A stretch of 64,000 nt of DNA from Olegusella massiliensis (GTDB lineage Bacteria > Actinomycetota > Coriobacteriia > Coriobacteriales > Atopobiaceae), in the NCBI RefSeq assembly GCF_900078545.1, contig NZ_FLLS01000002.1, forward strand, positions 620,001 through 684,000. The letters are read 5' to 3'. Numbering within the stretch: the first letter of the stretch is position 1; each line of letters opens with the position of its first letter. The position numbers were made by a program, and so were the translations under genes. This document shows, piece after piece, positions 34,496 through 60,419 of the stretch. Below the pieces are notes generated by a model. It was given only the letters and a program-made list of their open reading frames with translations, had not been told where the DNA came from and ran no database searches.

Positions 34496-34757
34496 GGAGT
34501 CCTCCTTGGGCAACAATAGCGAGCCTGTATCTATGATACCGCCTTGCCTGTCATCACAAATACCCAAGCGCCGACAAAGTTCGGTTGAAGTTGATATTCA
34601 ACCTGCCGTGGATATGTCATGGCAAAACCCCATTATTAAGATTTGTTGGATGACTTTTTATGTTTTTCTAGTAGAATTATAGCTAAGTCCGTTTACAGGG
34701 AACATCTGTCCTAGATATTCCCCAGCCCGTAAACAGCTAATAAAAGGAGAAGTGCAT

Positions 34758-35954
34758 ATGAACGTAAAGTCCGGAACTCTTGCAAAGGCAGCCGTTGCTG
34801 CCGCTCTGTCCTGCGCACTTGCTTCGCCCTTTGTTGCGGTAAATGCATATGCAGCAGAGGACGCACCTACCAACAATAATGACGCAATTGTTGCTACCGC
34901 CGTAGCAGCATCTGCTGAGGAAGCTCCCGAGGCCACTGCCGCCCCCGAGGCTGAGGCCGAAGCTCCTGAGACCTTCGCTGCAGCCACTCCTGAGGCCACT
35001 GCCACCCCCGAGGCTGAGGCCACTCCTGCCACCGAAGCTCCTGAGACCATCGCTGCAGCCACTCCTGAGGTCATTGTCGCCCCCGAGGAAAAGGAAACGC
35101 TTGATGGCGATTTGCTGATTAACGGTGATACCACCTCATCAAAACCGTACACGGTAAAGCAGGGCAGCACTTTTTCTGCCACAGGCAAACTTATTGTAGA
35201 CAAGATTGTTGGCCAGATGGACAAGATTGAGAAGAAGTACGGCGTCGGTGACACTAGTACCATTCAGCTTTCCGACGTCAACTCAACCTTTGAGATTACC
35301 TTGGAGCTAGGCGAGGATTTGAGCTTTACTCAAACTGACCTTGATGCTATCGAGCTGATTCATTTTGGTAAGTTCGAAATTGATGGTACTCCCATTTTTG
35401 AGGGCAATAAACTCACTATCAAGGTAAAACTCAATGCCGATACCATCAAAACCTACGCGGATTTGAAGACTGCGGTTAAGGCCTGCGCTTCTGAGATGAC
35501 CGCGAAAGTTTCTGGCATTAAGGTATCCGAAACTGCAGAGCCGGGTAAAAAGTCTGTCATTAAGGGCACGGTCAAAGGCCAGATGAGCGCCATTGCCACT
35601 TTGCATGGCCATACTATCCTTTTTCCTTTTACTTGGACCACTGTCCAAAATGAGAGTGGAAAAGATTCTGAAGCCACCGATCCCGAGGCTATCCAGGCAA
35701 CCGTTTTGGTTCAAAAGGCTGATCCCAAGCCCAATCCTGAGCCCAATCCCAAGCCCAATCCCAAGCCCGAGCCCAAGCCTGAGGCTAAGCCCCAGCCCAA
35801 GCACATTGCCCAAACCAAGGTCGTAAAGAAGCGCTCTGCTCTCCCTCAGACCTCTGATGTAGCTGCTACTGCTCTTCCTGCAGCAGCACTCGCTCTCGCT
35901 GGTGGTCTGCTTGCCGCAGCTGCAACTGTTTTGCGCAAGCGCAACGAGAACTAA
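34758..35954 (+). CDS. Sortase-anchored surface protein with one copy of a shared ~210-residue domain
   Basis: 398 residues. A signal peptide (about 1-33, ending VNAYAAED) is followed by a Glu/Ala/Pro/Thr-rich repeat (about 35-110, PEA/TPEA units). Then comes a globular domain (about 114-320) starting LDGDLLINGDTT and containing IVGQMDKIEKKY, NADTIKTYADLKTAV and IKGTVKGQMSA. A Pro/Lys spacer (PNPEPNPKPNPKPEPKP) leads to LPQTSD, a hydrophobic helix and RKRNEN. The sorting motif is LPQTS rather than LPxTG. The central domain recurs three times in the giant protein at 55002. ATG 34758 follows AAAAGGAGA. An inverted repeat GTTTAC..GTAAAC lies in its leader (about 34691-34735). Function unknown; likely wall-exposed. 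Confidence 0.8.
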   Translation: MNVKSGTLAKAAVAAALSCALASPFVAVNAYAAEDAPTNNNDAIVATAVAASAEEAPEATAAPEAEAEAPETFAAATPEATATPEAEATPATEAPETIAAATPEVIVAPEEKETLDGDLLINGDTTSSKPYTVKQGSTFSATGKLIVDKIVGQMDKIEKKYGVGDTSTIQLSDVNSTFEITLELGEDLSFTQTDLDAIELIHFGKFEIDGTPIFEGNKLTIKVKLNADTIKTYADLKTAVKACASEMTAKVSGIKVSETAEPGKKSVIKGTVKGQMSAIATLHGHTILFPFTWTTVQNESGKDSEATDPEAIQATVLVQKADPKPNPEPNPKPNPKPEPKPEAKPQPKHIAQTKVVKKRSALPQTSDVAATALPAAALALAGGLLAAAATVLRKRNEN

Positions 35955-53343: not shown

Positions 53344-53742
53344 CTACCAGACGTAGGCGATGACCTCGCCGCCGAGACCCAACTTGCGGGCGTCGCGGTC
53401 GCACATCATGCCCTTGGACGTGGAGATGACGGCAATGCCGAGGCCACCCAAAACGCGGGGCAGATCGGCAGCCTTGCTATAAATGCGCAAGCCAAGCTTG
53501 GAAACGCGGCGGATACCGCGAATCGTGCGAGTGCGCTTGGGGCCATACTTGAGCACGATATGCAGCGTCTTTTGAGGCTTGGTGTCCTCGATGCTGTATG
53601 ACTCGATGTAGCCCTCCTCGCACATAACACGGGCGATCTCAGCGAGCACCTTGCTAGAAGGCATGGACACCTCGTCCTTACCTGCATTGCTCGCGTTGCG
53701 GATACGTGTCAACATATCTGCGATGGGATCGGTAACCTTCAT
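53344..53742 (-). CDS. rpsH: 30S ribosomal protein S8
   Basis: 132 residues from ATG 53742 (GAGAAGGATC upstream). [20 protein letters not shown] start; [21 protein letters not shown] signature. Primary binder of 16S helix 21; in many bacteria it autoregulates this operon, but no matching leader was seen. Confidence 0.97.
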
Positions 53743-53830
53743 TGATCCTTCTCCTTTGTTCGTGATGAATCTGCACGTGTGGTTCATCTAACCCCATGGG
53801 AAAGATGCCTCCACGACAGTGCCCTGTGTC

Positions 53831-54016
53831 CTACCAGCTTGCCTTGCGGACGCCAGGAAGCTCGCCTTTGAGCGCCAGCTCGCGGAAGCACACACGGCAC
53901 AGGCCGAACTTGCGATACACGGAGTGGGGTCGCCCACAACGCTGGCAACGGTCCTGCTTGCGCGTCGAGAACTTCGGCGTGCGGTTCGCCTTGACGATCA
54001 TCGATGTCTTAGCCAC
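53831..54016 (-). CDS. rpsZ: 30S ribosomal protein S14, type Z (zinc-binding)
   Basis: 61 residues from GTG 54016, five bases after GAGGAGG. The two CxxC motifs ([13 protein letters not shown]) bind zinc. Ends GVRKASW. The upstream ATG at 54040 would add eight non-family residues. Confidence 0.96.
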
Positions 54017-54083: not shown

Positions 54084-54671
54084 TTACTCAGCCTTAAACG
54101 GGAAGTGGAAAGCAGAAAGAAGTGCCTTGGCTTCCTCGTTGTTGGGTGCAGTGGTGACAATGGTGATATCCATGCCACGGGTGTGGTCGATCTTATCGAA
54201 GTCAATCTCGGGGAAGATGACCTGCTCAGTGACACCCATGGAGTAGTTACCATGTCCATCAAAAGACTTGGGGGACAGGCCACGGAAGTCACGGATACGA
54301 GGGATAGCAATTGCGATGAGACGGTCGAGGAACTCCCACATACGGTCGCCACGCAACGTCACCTTGGCGCCAATGGGCTGACCTGCACGCAAATGGAAGG
54401 TAGCAATGGACTTGCGAGCATGGGTAACGAGGGGCTGCTGGCCCGTGATTGCACGAAGGTCAGAAACAGCACCGTCAATTGCCTTGGAATCGGTAGCCGC
54501 CTCGCCAACACCCATGTTGACGACAATCTTTTCAATCTTGGGAATCTGCATGACGCTCTTGTAGTTGAACTGCTTGTTAAGCTCGTCACGCACGGTATCA
54601 AGATAGTGCTGCTTGAGACGCGGGGTCTCAGAGGCGTTTGCAACAGCTACGCCTTTTGTCTGCTTTGCCAT
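54084..54671 (-). CDS. rplE: 50S ribosomal protein L5
   Basis: 195 residues. [57 protein letters not shown]. Binds 5S rRNA and P-site tRNA. It starts 331 bases after the stop of the adhesin gene rather than next to rplX, so it needs a promoter in 54672-54936; I could not identify one with confidence. Confidence 0.97.
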
Positions 54672-54936
54672 GTAGTGCTCCTTCAAAATCGAACATGGAG
54701 GTTTACGTGCGGGGGCCGCCTCGCACCACCTGGGCTGGCACCCAGGAGCCTATGCGTCACTATATCGGGTCGAGACACAATCCTCCCCTAGAGCATAGTC
54801 ACGCAAATAGTAAGGATAGCCTCTTGGGCAAGAGATTTCCAGTAGAAGTTTTTCCTGCGTGGAGTACACACATTGTTTGCGCATCGATCTCATACTTCTA
54901 CGTCATTTTTGCCTGAGGGTATCTATCTTGCGCATA

Positions 54937-54976
54937 AGAAAAGCAGCTGGCGGGAACTGCTTCCCTACCAGCTGCT
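54937..54976 (-). terminator. Terminator of the adhesin gene
   Basis: AGCAGCTGG (54942-54950) and CCAGCTGCT (54968-54976) with TTTTCTT on the minus strand. It lies 26 bases after the adhesin stop and before rplE. Confidence 0.8.
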
Positions 54977-55001
54977 TGGGGCGCATTTATATGCTTGTTG
55001 T

Positions 55002-58000
55002 CTAATCCTTATTGCCGTTACGCTTGCGCAGAATAAGTGCCGCACCAACCACTACTATGCCGGCTACCGCAATGCCGCCCACAGGCAAAAGCAAATCACC
55101 AGTCTGAGGTGAAAGCTTGCGAATGACCTTCTTCGTCACTTTCTTGGTAACCTTCTTGCCAGTATTTGATTTGCCAGGTGTATTGGGCGTATGGGGCTTT
55201 TCTGGCTGAGTGGGATCTGCCTTTACCTCCACCGTAAAGCGGATGCTCGTGTCATTGGCAGGCGCCGTTGCGTCCTTGCCGTCTGCCCACTGCTTGCCAT
55301 CCCAATGGAATTTAAAGGCTTTGGTAGTGCCACTTTCAGAAGTAACCGTTGCCTGCATATCGCCTGCGACAGTGCCTACTACCGTAAGACGAGTGCCATC
55401 CTTAACGTCACCATTGACCTTTACGCCAGGAATAATGACCTTCATCCAGCCGTCAGCATCCCCTGCCTGCTGAACCGCTTTCTGCAAGTCAGCATATGTC
55501 TTGATGTTGGTGGTATCGAGTTTCATCGTAACCGTAACGGTCTTACCGTCAGGGCTCACCTTGGTTTGAGTAATAGAGAAGTACGGACCAAAGTCCTTAG
55601 CAGTGGCCTTAACTACGCTAGGTAGAGTCAAACCATCTGGAATAGTGAACGTAGCCGTAAAGGTGCAGTTAGGCACATCAACGGTAAGTTTAGTGTAATC
55701 CGTTACCTGCGGATAAAGCTTCTCGATAGAGCTCATCTGCTCTTGAATGCTCTGCTTGTTGAGCCAGCCAGCATAATCAAGCGTGGCATTGGGCTTGGTG
55801 GGATATACCGCCTCATACTCGGTCTCTTCACCAATACGAATATCGCCAGAAAGATCCTGGGTAATGGTGGTAGGAGTCTCAAGCGTCGCCTGAATCGTCT
55901 TATCGTCTGTCGCAATACTATCTTTGCCTTCTGCCCATTGCTCAGCTTTCCAGGTAAAGAGGAATCGACGATTCTTGCCGGAGTTCTGCGATGTAGCAAG
56001 GGCATCAAAGCTACCTTCAACCGTACCAGTAACGGTCAGTTGTTTGCCCTCTCCCGTGTTAGATTTAACCTCAACGCGAGGAATACTGATCTTCATCCAG
56101 CCATTTGCATCGCCCGCAGAGTCAACAGCATGTTCCAGCTGGTCATACGTTGTGATGTTATCGGCCAAGTCCATCTTGGCAACGACGGTGTTGCCTTCGA
56201 CCTTTACGTCAACAATCTTGAAGCCACCGAAGTTCTCAAGTTTTACATCATCTTTGGTAAGTGCAGGGAGCTTCATCTCATGAGGAACCGTAAACTTCGC
56301 TACGAAACCAAACTTGTGAATATCTACATCAATCTTGTTGTGGGCAACATTGGGATAGAGCTGTTCTATGCCCGCCATTTGATCTTTGATTGTCTTGACA
56401 TTCAACGCGCCCGTCACGTCAACTTTCTTACCAGGAAGTACGCCATAGGTGGAGGTATTGGTGGTGTTGTTGTTAACGAGAATATCGCCAGGGAGCGTGG
56501 ATGTGGCAGGAAGTGTTGCCGCAACGGTATAGCTAATAGTGTCGTTAGTTGCAGGCTTTGCATCGTTGACAGTCGTGCCCTGACCGGCCTCGTCATTGCC
56601 TTTTGCGTTCTGCTTTGCTTTCCAACTAAATACAAACTTCTTGGTTGAACTGTTATGAGTAGCATAAGAAGAGAAGTTACCTGTGAGCTTGCCGTCCATG
56701 TGGAAGAGCTTGCCGTCTTGTGTAACTTTATTGCTATCCAGCGTGAAGCCATCAATCATGATTTGAATTTTGGCAGGAGTGACCTGAGGATCACCAGCAC
56801 GGCGCATCTGCTTGAGAGTGCCCGTCTGTGTATCATTTTTGCCTACTGAGGCAACTGCATCCTGCAGCTCTTTGTAGGTACGAATACCGCTCTTCAAATT
56901 AAACTTCACGGTAATAGTATTTCCGGTCTGCGTAACATCGCCCAGAGTAAAGCAGTCGCCCAAACCTGTTGCTACAACCTTGGGGTTGTCGGTGACCTTT
57001 ACACCATCGGGCACGGTAAAGGTTGCCGTGAAGCTGGATTTCAGCTGGTCGAGCGTAATCTTGTCAGGCTCATTTGCTGCATCAGCAAAGAGCGCTTCTG
57101 TATTCTTCATCTGCTCTTGAATGGGCTGCGCATCAATCTGCCCCGTAATAGAGAAGGTCTCTTTGTCGGGACGGATGTATTGCAGCTTTGAACTCGTCTC
57201 CTCACTGATAGACCACAGGTCACCATTGAGAGCCAAGTCCTGCTTAATCTCCTTGATTTCAGGATCGGTTTTCCACCTAAGGTAGTAGGTAACATCTTTC
57301 GTGAGCGTGGGGTTGTGACCAGAAACCACAAAACCAAAAATCGTAAAATCATCAAATCGATAATTGGTGCCCTTGCCCGATGCACTTTCATTCCAATTGT
57401 TATTATCGGCAAGTACCTCATGGGCTTTCGTAGCTTTGGTGTCAGGCTTTAGCTGGTTGTAATCAAATGATCCAAGAATGTCATGCAAGGTCTGACCATA
57501 CTCAGCACCCTGCTTTACGACGGCAACATCTCCGCCCTTGGCATCCTGCTTTATTTCAAAAACGTCAGGATTCTTCTTAAAGACCGAATCATCAGAGAAC
57601 GTTCCGCCATTGGCAGAAAAAGATACGGTGTACTTCTGAGCATTCCACTTTGCATACAGATCAATCTGTGTCACGCCTTCTTTGAAGCTCAGCTCACTAC
57701 CCTCGGCAACGTCCTTGCCGCCATTTTCGGCAGTTGACCAGCTTATGAAGTCCTTGCCATCGCGTGCAAACTTATTATTAGCCTTGACTACTTCATCATA
57801 TGAGAGTGCCTGTGCGCTTGTTGCAGAGTTATCCAGCGTTTGGATATAGCTCTCACCATCACCGTTATGATAAATGACCGCCTTTGCATCCCACTTTGCA
57901 TAGACCTCAAGGTCGGTCGAAACCTTGTCACTATAGTTAAATGCGTGCTCGGTACCAGCAGAATCCTTATAGAACCAACCAAGGAATTTGACACCGTTCT

Positions 58001-59723
58001 TATCGCTTGGGGTCCCAGGATGCGTATTGCCCACTACTGCATCGGGCTCGTATCCACGGATGGTAGAAATTTGCTTATCAGCAGCGGTGTTATCAGCAAA
58101 CGTTGCATCTGCATTATTAAGCTTAAAAGTTATTTTAGCTGCAGGTACCCAAACATGCTTCTGTCCGTCACGAGAGGCCGTAGCCACCGGATAGGTATAT
58201 GTCGCGCCGTTTATATTGAGAGGATTAAGCGAACTGACGCTAGAGTCTGACAGCGTAAAAAGCGTGAGCCTTTCATTGCCATTTTTAGCACCATTAGTAG
58301 GAATCGTTTTTCCCGCATAATAGTTGGGCGCATACTTAACTAAGTGAGAGCCACCCACCACTACATAGCCATCTGCGCCAGCATCGTTAAGACCATTATC
58401 GGCATCTGTCTCAGCTGGCGTATTCACAACGGAATTGCCCTTAAAAATAAATTGGCCCTTTTGCACACCAAATTGAGAACCTGAATGAAGCGAGCTTTCA
58501 AGCGTTGCATTATCAAATATGGCAGTGCCCTCGTTGATATTAAAACCACCATTTTTATTGTTTGAAGCTACAAACTTGGCACCGTTATCAAAAATAATTT
58601 TTGTTCCATACCCTAGGGTAAGGCCCTTACTACGCCAATGCGTGCTGTAATTTTTTACTTCAAGCACCGAACCATTGGTTATATGGTAGTCGCCCAACTC
58701 CCAAGCATTAGCCATGTAGATGCCCGTTTGGTAGTTAACACCCGTTCCATCTGTGGACAAGGTGGAGTTGTCGAGCTCGATGGGACCCTTGAAATAAAAG
58801 GGCATGCGATACGTTTTAATTACTGAGTTCTTGGCTTTGAAGCCTGACCACTCATATAGCTCCCAGTGATTTCCCTCATAGCGCTGATCGATAGTAGTGT
58901 TTTCAATAATGCTATTTGAGCTAGAGCTCCGGAAGCAGCAATTGCTTAAACTCATTTTTACAGAGCCTTGCGAGCTACCTTGAATATTTCCCCGAAACTC
59001 AACTGCACAGGTATCGTTTGTCGAGGAAAATACATACGAGCCATCAGTGATAACTGCATTTTTGTCAATCTTTATAGCAATGCCAAATTCCTTCATCGTC
59101 AAGGTGGCGCCATGAGAAGTCCTGAGTTTTGAGCCGCCGTTGAGATGAAGGCCAGTTATGCCGCTGTTCGCATTCATTGTGGTGTCAGCTATGACATCAA
59201 TGGTGACGCCATCGGCAACTTTAATAGTCTTGGTAAGGGTAAAGCTGCCAGCAATATGTACTACGCCTTTCCCACTGGTGAGCGCTGCTTGGGCTTTCTC
59301 AATAGTTTTAAAGGGGTGATCACTCGTGCCATCACCAGTATCATCATTGCCGCTATCGCCATTTGCATATGTCTCGCTCAGAGAGGCAGGAATGCGGGCG
59401 GGCGCGTGGGCGCCAGCCTTGTCGGCAGGCTTGGCAGGCTCAGCAATCGTGGGGTCAGCGCTTTGCTTGTCTGAGGGGGCCTCATTTTGATCGGCTGCGC
59501 TGTCCTTGGATTTTGCCTCGGCTGTAGCCGTAGCATCCTGAGTAGACTCTGCGGTTGCCGCGTTGTCTGCAGGCTGGGAGACGGTAGCTACTTCTTCCTC
59601 ACCCTCAGGTACGCGCGCTAATGCTGGCGCAGGTACCAAAGACGTGCAAAGTAGCAAGCTCATAAAAAGCGTCGTCACCCGACACAATAAAGAGGTTTGG
59701 CTGGTGTGTACGTTTCTAGACAT
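55002..59723 (-). CDS. Giant sortase-anchored adhesin inserted between rplX and rplE
   Basis: 1573 residues from ATG 59723 (GAGG upstream). Signal peptide about 1-37 (ending PAPALA); Ala/Glu/Asp/Lys-rich spacer to about 105; a right-handed beta-helix-like region about 115-470 (GDGTSDHPFKTIEKAQAAL start, many short Asn/Ser/Thr-rich turns). InlB/Listeria-Bacteroides-type repeats follow, about 470-660 (VKFLGWFYKD..VYAKWD; DFISWSTAENGG..LYAKWN; YTVSFSANGGTF). Then three copies of a ~210-residue domain at about 830-1076, 1077-1290 and 1291-1501 (IQEQM..IE.LYP, ATFTIPDG, IKTYADLQKAV, GTV.G). A Lys/Thr spacer leads to LSPQTGD, a membrane helix and RKRNGNKD. Probably wall-linked by sortase and involved in adhesion. 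It has its own -10 box and terminator. Confidence 0.85.
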   Translation of the reverse strand: MSRNVHTSQTSLLCRVTTLFMSLLLCTSLVPAPALARVPEGEEEVATVSQPADNAATAESTQDATATAEAKSKDSAADQNEAPSDKQSADPTIAEPAKPADKAGAHAPARIPASLSETYANGDSGNDDTGDGTSDHPFKTIEKAQAALTSGKGVVHIAGSFTLTKTIKVADGVTIDVIADTTMNANSGITGLHLNGGSKLRTSHGATLTMKEFGIAIKIDKNAVITDGSYVFSSTNDTCAVEFRGNIQGSSQGSVKMSLSNCCFRSSSSNSIIENTTIDQRYEGNHWELYEWSGFKAKNSVIKTYRMPFYFKGPIELDNSTLSTDGTGVNYQTGIYMANAWELGDYHITNGSVLEVKNYSTHWRSKGLTLGYGTKIIFDNGAKFVASNNKNGGFNINEGTAIFDNATLESSLHSGSQFGVQKGQFIFKGNSVVNTPAETDADNGLNDAGADGYVVVGGSHLVKYAPNYYAGKTIPTNGAKNGNERLTLFTLSDSSVSSLNPLNINGATYTYPVATASRDGQKHVWVPAAKITFKLNNADATFADNTAADKQISTIRGYEPDAVVGNTHPGTPSDKNGVKFLGWFYKDSAGTEHAFNYSDKVSTDLEVYAKWDAKAVIYHNGDGESYIQTLDNSATSAQALSYDEVVKANNKFARDGKDFISWSTAENGGKDVAEGSELSFKEGVTQIDLYAKWNAQKYTVSFSANGGTFSDDSVFKKNPDVFEIKQDAKGGDVAVVKQGAEYGQTLHDILGSFDYNQLKPDTKATKAHEVLADNNNWNESASGKGTNYRFDDFTIFGFVVSGHNPTLTKDVTYYLRWKTDPEIKEIKQDLALNGDLWSISEETSSKLQYIRPDKETFSITGQIDAQPIQEQMKNTEALFADAANEPDKITLDQLKSSFTATFTVPDGVKVTDNPKVVATGLGDCFTLGDVTQTGNTITVKFNLKSGIRTYKELQDAVASVGKNDTQTGTLKQMRRAGDPQVTPAKIQIMIDGFTLDSNKVTQDGKLFHMDGKLTGNFSSYATHNSSTKKFVFSWKAKQNAKGNDEAGQGTTVNDAKPATNDTISYTVAATLPATSTLPGDILVNNNTTNTSTYGVLPGKKVDVTGALNVKTIKDQMAGIEQLYPNVAHNKIDVDIHKFGFVAKFTVPHEMKLPALTKDDVKLENFGGFKIVDVKVEGNTVVAKMDLADNITTYDQLEHAVDSAGDANGWMKISIPRVEVKSNTGEGKQLTVTGTVEGSFDALATSQNSGKNRRFLFTWKAEQWAEGKDSIATDDKTIQATLETPTTITQDLSGDIRIGEETEYEAVYPTKPNATLDYAGWLNKQSIQEQMSSIEKLYPQVTDYTKLTVDVPNCTFTATFTIPDGLTLPSVVKATAKDFGPYFSITQTKVSPDGKTVTVTMKLDTTNIKTYADLQKAVQQAGDADGWMKVIIPGVKVNGDVKDGTRLTVVGTVAGDMQATVTSESGTTKAFKFHWDGKQWADGKDATAPANDTSIRFTVEVKADPTQPEKPHTPNTPGKSNTGKKVTKKVTKKVIRKLSPQTGDLLLPVGGIAVAGIVVVGAALILRKRNGNKD

Positions 59724-59867
59724 GTTTTGCGCCTCTCTTTGTACCAATATCTCGATACCTTTTGCCTAAGCTCTTCCTGTAAGCTCAAGGTGTACAGTCA
59801 GGAGCATTTTGCCACCCAACACGCTTATTTACAAGCAAATTTCACCAATAAACGTGCTAGTCCTGCA

Positions 59868-59873
59868 ATTATA
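59868..59873 (-). promoter_or_regulatory. -10 box of the adhesin gene
   Basis: TATAAT on the minus strand about 145 bases upstream of the start codon; the -35 region (CTGCAA/TGCAAC) is weak. The leader of about 140 bases (59724-59862) has no obvious riboswitch. No other gene lies in 59724-60009. Confidence 0.45.
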
Positions 59874-60009
59874 GCGTGAAATGCTCTCAGTTGCAGTGAA
59901 TTAACATTTGTGAGATGCCAGATGTTGTCAGGGGCGGTACTTCTTTTATGGGTACGCGAGTCTCACTCACACCCGCTCATTTACCAAACGGCAGCAACCT
60001 TCACGTTGC

Positions 60010-60040
60010 AAAAAAGCCCGACCCTCTAAAGGGCCGGGCT
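60010..60040 (-). terminator. Terminator after rplX
   Basis: AGCCCGGCCCT-TTAG-AGGGTCGGGCT then TTTTTT on the minus strand (arms 60030-60040 and 60015-60025). It ends the S10/upstream spc transcript 62 bases after rplX. Confidence 0.9.
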
Positions 60041-60101
60041 AAAACATACGAAACTCTCGCACTGTACGCACAACAGCGCGCAGTGTCAACGCAAGAAAAC
60101 C

Positions 60102-60419
60102 TTAGAGCTCAGCTCCGGATTTCTTGGCGTAACGAACCTTCTTGCCATCCTCGGTAAAGCGATAGCCCACGCGAGTTGGCTTGTCAGTACTAGGGTCAAT
60201 CAAAGCAACGTTGCTTACATCGATAGGCATGGGCTTCTCGATGATGCCGCCTTGCTGATTGAGCTGGTTGGGCTTAGTGTGACGCTTCACAACAGCAACG
60301 CCCTCAACGACAACCTTGCCCTCTGCAGGCATGGCGCGCAGGACTTCGCCGCGAGTACCCTTGTCCTTGCCGGACAGGACCTCAACCATATCACCCTTGC
60401 GGATGTTCATCTTAGGCAT
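60102..60419 (-). CDS. rplX: 50S ribosomal protein L24
   Basis: 105 residues. [22 protein letters not shown] is the KOW motif; VKRHTKPN and [16 protein letters not shown] follow. Early assembly protein. Last gene before the adhesin; followed by a strong terminator, which is unusual for rplX. Confidence 0.97.

Follow-up and report, generated by a model that had tools for sequence, protein, structure and literature searches.

A surface-protein gene at a recurrently opened rplX-rplE junction in Olegusella massiliensis and a conserved leader RNA before rplE in Coriobacteriia

The gene order rplN-rplX-rplE-rpsN is among the most conserved in bacteria. In the stretch of the Olegusella massiliensis genome analysed here (the window, 64,000 nt, G000:C2:620001-684000, from a genome of 1.8 Mb in two contigs), the minus strand reads rplX, terminator, an open reading frame of 1573 aa, a second terminator, rplE, rpsZ and rpsH (Table 1). 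Open reading frames and HMM matches place the surface-protein gene between rplX and rplE on one strand, as a sequence-only reading of this DNA had proposed, and both terminators named in that reading were recovered: the hairpin after rplX, a stem of 11 bp followed by six T residues, folds at -21.8 kcal/mol (z -4.7), with none of 200 shuffled sequences equally stable, and the hairpin after the surface-protein gene folds at -30.6 kcal/mol (z -5.1). The -10 box that the same reading assigned to the surface-protein gene is a weak match to the consensus, and promoter-like sites were fewer than in shuffled sequences. An alternative TTG start at 59747 would add 8 aa to the protein. The GC content of the gene is 45 to 50%, versus 56% in the flanking ribosomal genes. 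A promoter-like match (TTGACA, spacer of 17, TACAGT) at 60061-60089 on the minus strand, between the rplX stop codon and the rplX terminator, may be due to chance.

Table 1. Positions of genes, signals and predicted elements around the rplX-rplE junction (numbering of the window)
Feature	Position	Strand	Description and basis
rplX (uL24)	60102-60419	minus	closing gene of the proposed upstream ribosomal unit; ORF and HMM TIGR01079, E 2.8e-39
Intrinsic terminator 3' of rplX	60015-60040	minus	11-bp stem, then T6
Surface-protein (cargo) gene	55002-59723	minus	ATG start, 1573 aa
N-terminal right-handed beta-helix	58434-59372	minus	~residues 118-430, presumed ligand-binding end; model and divergence from sister species
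Three stalk repeats	55224-57248	minus	~215-240 aa each; alignment
Cell-wall sorting signal	55002-55112	minus	SPQTGD, hydrophobic stretch, RKRNGNKD; sequence
Terminator hairpin 3' of surface-protein gene	~54936-54977	minus	-30.6 kcal/mol, z -5.1
-10 box of rplE unit (predicted)	54813-54818	minus	TATCCT; column conservation in 51 family genomes
rplE leader RNA	54669-54806	minus	5' UTR, conserved TTGCG to ATG; alignments of 51 genomes
Leader core	54695-54755	minus	covariance model R2
Leader hairpin P2	54727-54748	minus	CUCCUGGG..CCCAGGUG; double changes at 7 of 8 pairs within the family
Leader hairpin P3	54707-54726	minus	GUGCGAGG..CCCCGCAC; class-wide element; covariation; loop compared with 23S helix 84
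rplE (uL5)	54084-54671	minus	head of the proposed downstream unit; PF00281, E 2.2e-27
rpsZ (uS14) and rpsH (uS8)	53344-54016	minus	usual order after rplE; ORFs and junction comparison

The product of the inserted gene is built like a sortase-anchored adhesin and is predicted to bind a ligand. It carries a signal peptide (MSRNVHTSQTSLLCRVTTLFMSLLLCTSLVPAPALA), Flg_new/InlB-type repeats, a modelled N-terminal beta-helix and a repeat stalk ending in the sorting signal. Confidence in the beta-helix model is high over most of the first ~150 residues (pLDDT 80 to 94) and lower thereafter, and the model weakly matches the P22 tailspike, rhamnogalacturonan lyase and lacto-N-biosidase; the stalk-repeat model (pLDDT 77) has its best matches among Gram-positive pilin/adhesin domains, at a TM score of ~0.35. 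A PDB sequence search with the protein gave no match. The sorting signal is of a variant type: curated LPXTG models scored it below their cut-off, and a weak match to an NCBIfam model of sortase-dependent proteins was found. Two sortase-like open reading frames lie elsewhere in the genome (L211 and L212, motifs TLSTC and LVTCS, E ~1e-5, just below the curated cut-off); with the SPQTGD-type signal, they bear out the earlier description of a sortase-anchored protein of 1573 residues. Residues 110-600 are 47% identical overall to those of the homologue in the sister species, with the beta-helix part far lower, and the final stalk repeat is ~90% identical, a pattern in keeping with a constant stalk that carries a variable, predicted binding head; the protein presumably serves adhesion. 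A second secreted protein of 400 aa, with one stalk repeat and an LPQTS tail, is encoded on the plus strand at 34752-35954, ~19 kb from the adhesin gene, and has a homologue in the sister species at G031:C38:38892-39737.

Of the named relatives identified, Atopobium sp. oral taxon 810 F0209 (G031; rplE 97% identical) is the closest, and comparison with it addressed whether a misjoined contig might account for the junction. In this separate assembly the order rplX, a homologue of 1566 aa (70 to 72% identical), rplE is unchanged, so that the gene order is no assembly artefact. A homologue that is 38 to 42% identical also occupies the rplX-rplE site in a related genus with a single-contig genome (G035). 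As a sister species' independent assembly keeps the order, and single-contig genomes carry inserts at this junction, the probability of an assembly error is practically negligible.

A separation of rplX from rplE is unusual beyond this class. In 70 named outgroup loci outside Coriobacteriia (Streptomyces, Mycobacterium, Corynebacterium, Vibrio, Alteromonas and others), alignment showed rplX and rplE to be contiguous, at distances of -33 to +26 nt. Among the 140 Atopobiaceae genomes surveyed, the distance forms a continuum from less than 200 nt to 32 kb; it exceeds 1 kb in 45 of the 102 in which the two genes share a contig and a strand, and in several further genomes of the family the two genes lie on different contigs. 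Within the window's own genus, the site is empty in another species (G032), and in G033 rplX and rplE are found inside two different long contigs. The Collinsella-type family has the two genes split in every checkable genome (22/22), either at least 13 kb apart or at unrelated places, and in the Eggerthella-type and other Coriobacteriia families the checkable genomes are compact at this point. In one genome of the Collinsella-type family (G271:C3), ~0.87 Mb separates rplX from rplE, which are encoded on opposite strands, and the leader described below still directly precedes rplE; spc is completely broken there. A literature search found no published account of an spc operon that is split in Collinsella or in Atopobium.

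The opening is confined to one junction. Distances of more than 300 nt were found at rplN-rplX in 0 of 55 loci, at rplX-rplE in 37 of 55, at rplE-rpsZ in 0 of 53 and at rpsZ-rpsH in 1 of 52; these loci were picked partly for large inserts, and the value of 37/55 is thus not a frequency, as that of 45/102 is. The sole open rpsZ-rpsH junction is due to a tandem duplication in G043. In that genome the rplE leader occurs twice (L074 9508-9567 and 10445-10504), 937 nt apart and with equal score, together with two L5 matches, and the duplication of leader and rplE lies within a 2-Mb contig.

What fills the site varies by lineage: adhesins and giant surface proteins are among the cargo, as are pilus genes accompanied by a sortase, dehydrogenases and transporters; surface proteins were found in roughly half of the filled sites read. 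Adhesins related to that of the window occupy the site in G000 itself, G031, G035 and G037. According to Pfam, the insert of G048 is a pilin cluster with FctA, GramPos_pilinBB and SpaA domains, and those of G061, G073, G128 and G135 encode large SpaA/Cna_B proteins; proteins of 3000 to 5000 aa are encoded in G044 and G064. Other inserts hold transporter genes (G058), D-2-hydroxyacid dehydrogenases (G131 and, by eye, G114, G051 and G133), a DUF4282 zinc-ribbon protein (G114 and, by eye, G082 and G007) or a Schlafen/AlbA-type protein (G101). The locus in G128 (L084 1766-11298) is pilus-like, with large SpaA and LPSTG proteins and a sortase gene, and is complete within the rplX-rplE gap. A single junction that takes up unrelated cargo in different lineages while the adjacent junctions stay closed has the properties of an insertion hotspot, and comparison of the genomes shows that the arrangement recurs independently, is specific to this junction and is diverse in cargo.

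The sequence-only reading had offered two interpretations of the adhesin gene, a link to growth rate and a tolerated insertion. If read-through from rplX expressed the adhesin in step with growth rate, it would be coupled to ribosome synthesis; the gene is indeed adjacent to rplX on the same strand, and a homologue is kept exactly at rplX-rplE in four genomes of three genera. Such coupling is nonetheless very unlikely in our view: a strong terminator follows rplX, in most lineages the site is empty or holds something else, and adhesin homologues, present in 19 of the 140 family genomes, are at rplX-rplE in only 4 of these and elsewhere in most. Because many lineages have the junction open and filled with unrelated genes, nothing ties the adhesin to growth rate, and a tolerated insertion is the better of the two interpretations.

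A further possibility is that the junction serves as the attachment site of a mobile element, with a target in the leader or the terminator and cargo arriving by site-specific integration. Recurrent insertion of changing cargo at a single junction would agree with this, as would a serine recombinase gene in G033 (L036 4464-5954), ~2.2 kb upstream of the rplE leader. We consider this explanation improbable, since no recombinase was found among the main cargo open reading frames of the other genomes scanned by Pfam, a scan that covered part of the open reading frames, and the inserts differ widely in size. The window insert, a single open reading frame, contains no integrase or transposase, and neither flanking direct repeats or a target duplication nor other signs of a mobile element were found in the window. 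The adhesin gene is best described as ordinary cargo, one tenant of a permissive site.

The signals on either side of the gap indicate how the site could be permissive. Before rplE, a -10 element of the form TAnnAT is conserved in family genomes with and without inserts, its T, A and T being kept in 48, 49 and 50 of 51 genomes, respectively; the window's own copy (TATCCT) matches the consensus weakly, and a -35 box was not conserved before rplE in the family genomes compared. Of the 59 loci read, 39 have a hairpin and T-run after rplX and none (0 of 59) has one after rplN; the other 20 lacked a hairpin with at least 4 T after rplX by the criterion used, the T-run being interrupted in some of them. 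Where the rplX-rplE site is empty, the terminator after rplX is likewise present, and the -10 box and a structured leader stand directly before rplE. From these patterns we infer that the -10 box of rplE probably acts as a promoter and that transcription probably terminates after rplX.

The core of the leader is formed by hairpins P2 and P3; a short conserved stretch comes next, and then the ribosome binding site and the ATG. The family alignment, from which covariance model R2 was built, comprised 38 family members, with the window and its sister left out. In this alignment 93.6% of cells were paired and 9 of 15 pairs showed double changes, and there were 65 double-change cells versus 20.4 in shuffles; structures slid along the same alignment were only 35 to 58% paired. 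Across the whole genome of the window, R2 gave a single strong match (62.7 bits, E 4.7e-20), the next best reaching 13.3 bits. Among the family loci read, with or without cargo, R2 also placed the leader before rplE in nearly all; the exceptions were G030 and G040, which had no recognisable leader there. In the other Coriobacteriia families, every checkable R2 match of at least 25 bits lay 85 to 101 nt before the L5 domain, and the leader stays before rplE even where rplX is tens of kilobases or more away. Eight weaker R2 matches in other families of the class lay away from rplE and were treated as chance. No leader match was obtained in the 70 named outgroup loci outside Coriobacteriia; the best match in the phylum outside the class (G417) was not near rplE and was also taken as chance. 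Searches of the window (E up to 5) and of ten leader loci against Rfam 15 gave no match.

Folded alone, the window leader is not unusually stable (z -1.7), and the case for the leader rests on comparison. In rplE upstream regions from several families of the class, P3 proved to be the element shared class-wide, with a stem that covaries freely and is closed by GG-U[C/U][G/A]G[A/C]AA-[U/C]C; over 19 diverse sequences, 95.5% of cells were paired, 5 of 7 pairs had double changes, and 31 double-change cells were counted versus 7.4 in shuffles. The P3 loop of the window is shortened (CGGC), as in many Atopobiaceae. A covarying structure, a steady 5' UTR position before rplE and specificity on a genome-wide scale are the properties of an r-leader. 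Comparison of the genomes shows this leader, its covariation and its constant position before rplE; previously undescribed, it is present across class Coriobacteriia. Two other ideas about its elements were set aside: sequestration of the ribosome binding site by a conserved CC-CC element, since the pairing is not consistently kept, and a likeness of P2 to 5S loop C, noticed by eye, since the P2 stem covaries freely and few letters are shared.

Our combined comparisons suggest, with good probability, that the Coriobacteriia spc operon is organised as two units, one ending in rplN-rplX and the other beginning with rplE-rpsZ-rpsH, the second with its own promoter and leader, and that the gap between them admits cargo. 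With a complete unit on each side of it, the gap could take up DNA without damage. In Atopobiaceae the gap has become a recurrent insertion site, and in the Collinsella-type family the halves have moved far apart; the adhesin itself is probably expressed as a separate unit with a terminator on either side. Because the leader and the -10 box precede rplE class-wide, at filled and empty sites alike, the boundary predates the insert. The earlier conclusion that rplE must start from a new promoter is therefore right as to a promoter of its own and wrong as to its being new, since the same -10 box and leader are there with or without an insert. Nor does the adhesin split a transcription unit; it sits between two units. 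It had also been reasoned that an insertion found throughout the order would be old. By that measure two families of the order have an old break, and the adhesin at the site is confined to a few genera. The adhesin insertion is a symptom of an older and wider, class-wide break of spc at the leader-bearing rplE.

The leader itself may be an autoregulatory site, and the leading idea for its ligand is uL5, because P3 resembles helix 84 of 23S rRNA, which uL5, the product of rplE, contacts (PMC10531944). A likeness to the rRNA site of the presumed ligand is frequent among r-leaders, though not universal, and here the loop and its closing pairs match helix 84. The apical hairpin of helix 84 is GGUCGGCAACC in the window genome and GGU[C/U]GGCAA[C/U]C in at least nine other Coriobacteriia; helix 84 in 10 Coriobacteriia thus reads GGUYGGCAAYC, compared with GGUYGGMAAYC for the leader loops. 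The E. coli counterpart in helix 84 is GGUCGGACAUC, at ~2303 when anchored on A2450. The covariance model of P3 (R3) did not rank helix 84 among sites of the rRNA operon, and in a naive mismatch scan with the P3 consensus other rRNA sites matched better than helix 84. We know of no earlier r-leader for uL5. If uL5 is the ligand, excess uL5 might bind the leader of its own mRNA and thereby lower translation of the rplE unit. In a fuller form, the idea would be that a class-wide uL5 autoregulatory leader imitates helix 84, and that its gain made rplE self-sufficient, letting the cluster break and become a docking site for surface genes; we put this forward tentatively, as possible rather than probable.

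The main rival ligand is uS8, because in E. coli uS8 acts at the start of rplE, the same position, where it represses the spc mRNA (PMC10931766). Its gene, rpsH, belongs to the rplE unit; on this reading the Coriobacteriia leader would be regulated by uS8 as in E. coli, not by uL5. Judged by eye, helix 84 is a better likeness of the leader hairpin than 16S helix 21 is, and the E. coli structure was not found in B. subtilis (PMC10931766); regulation by uS8 seems to us rather unlikely. A recent review describes control of spc outside gamma-proteobacteria as unknown and its phylogeny as unstudied (PMC10931766), and the leader offers a concrete RNA with which such control can be tested. Should the uL5 reading be true, the spc region would be controlled in a manner different from the uS8 system of E. 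coli. More generally, a downstream half that owns a promoter and a regulatory leader would be a visible reason why one lineage could break a conserved order. The repeated storage of Atopobiaceae surface proteins at one permissive site may also aid the finding of variable adhesins and pili.

With its signal peptide, repeat stalk, LPXTG-like signal and variable N-terminal domain, the surface protein is like those of the MSCRAMM, SpaA and FctA types; it differs from them in that its N-terminal domain is a predicted beta-helix instead of the Ig folds of MSCRAMMs, and in that its stalk repeats match known pilin domains weakly (TM ~0.35). Insertions and separations of genes are known from published cases in the universal ribosomal cluster, which, in the portions of that literature considered here, lie mostly between operons or are single-gene losses in Gammaproteobacteria and Bacilli; unlike these, Coriobacteriia open one junction inside spc repeatedly across a family. 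The leader is similar to the r-leaders of Eckert and Weinberg 2020 (PMC7247131) in being a covarying 5' UTR structure of a ribosomal protein gene in one lineage, whereas the only leader given for Coriobacteria in the sections of their list used here is one for L31, with none for L5/rplE. Another close parallel is the E. coli uS8 operator (PMC10931766), also a cis-acting RNA at the rplX/rplE boundary that controls the unit headed by rplE. In E. coli, however, a single transcript carries both rplX and rplE, and the operator RNA imitates 16S helix 21 (PMC10931766), whereas rplE of Coriobacteriia appears to have a promoter of its own and a leader of another kind, with two hairpins.
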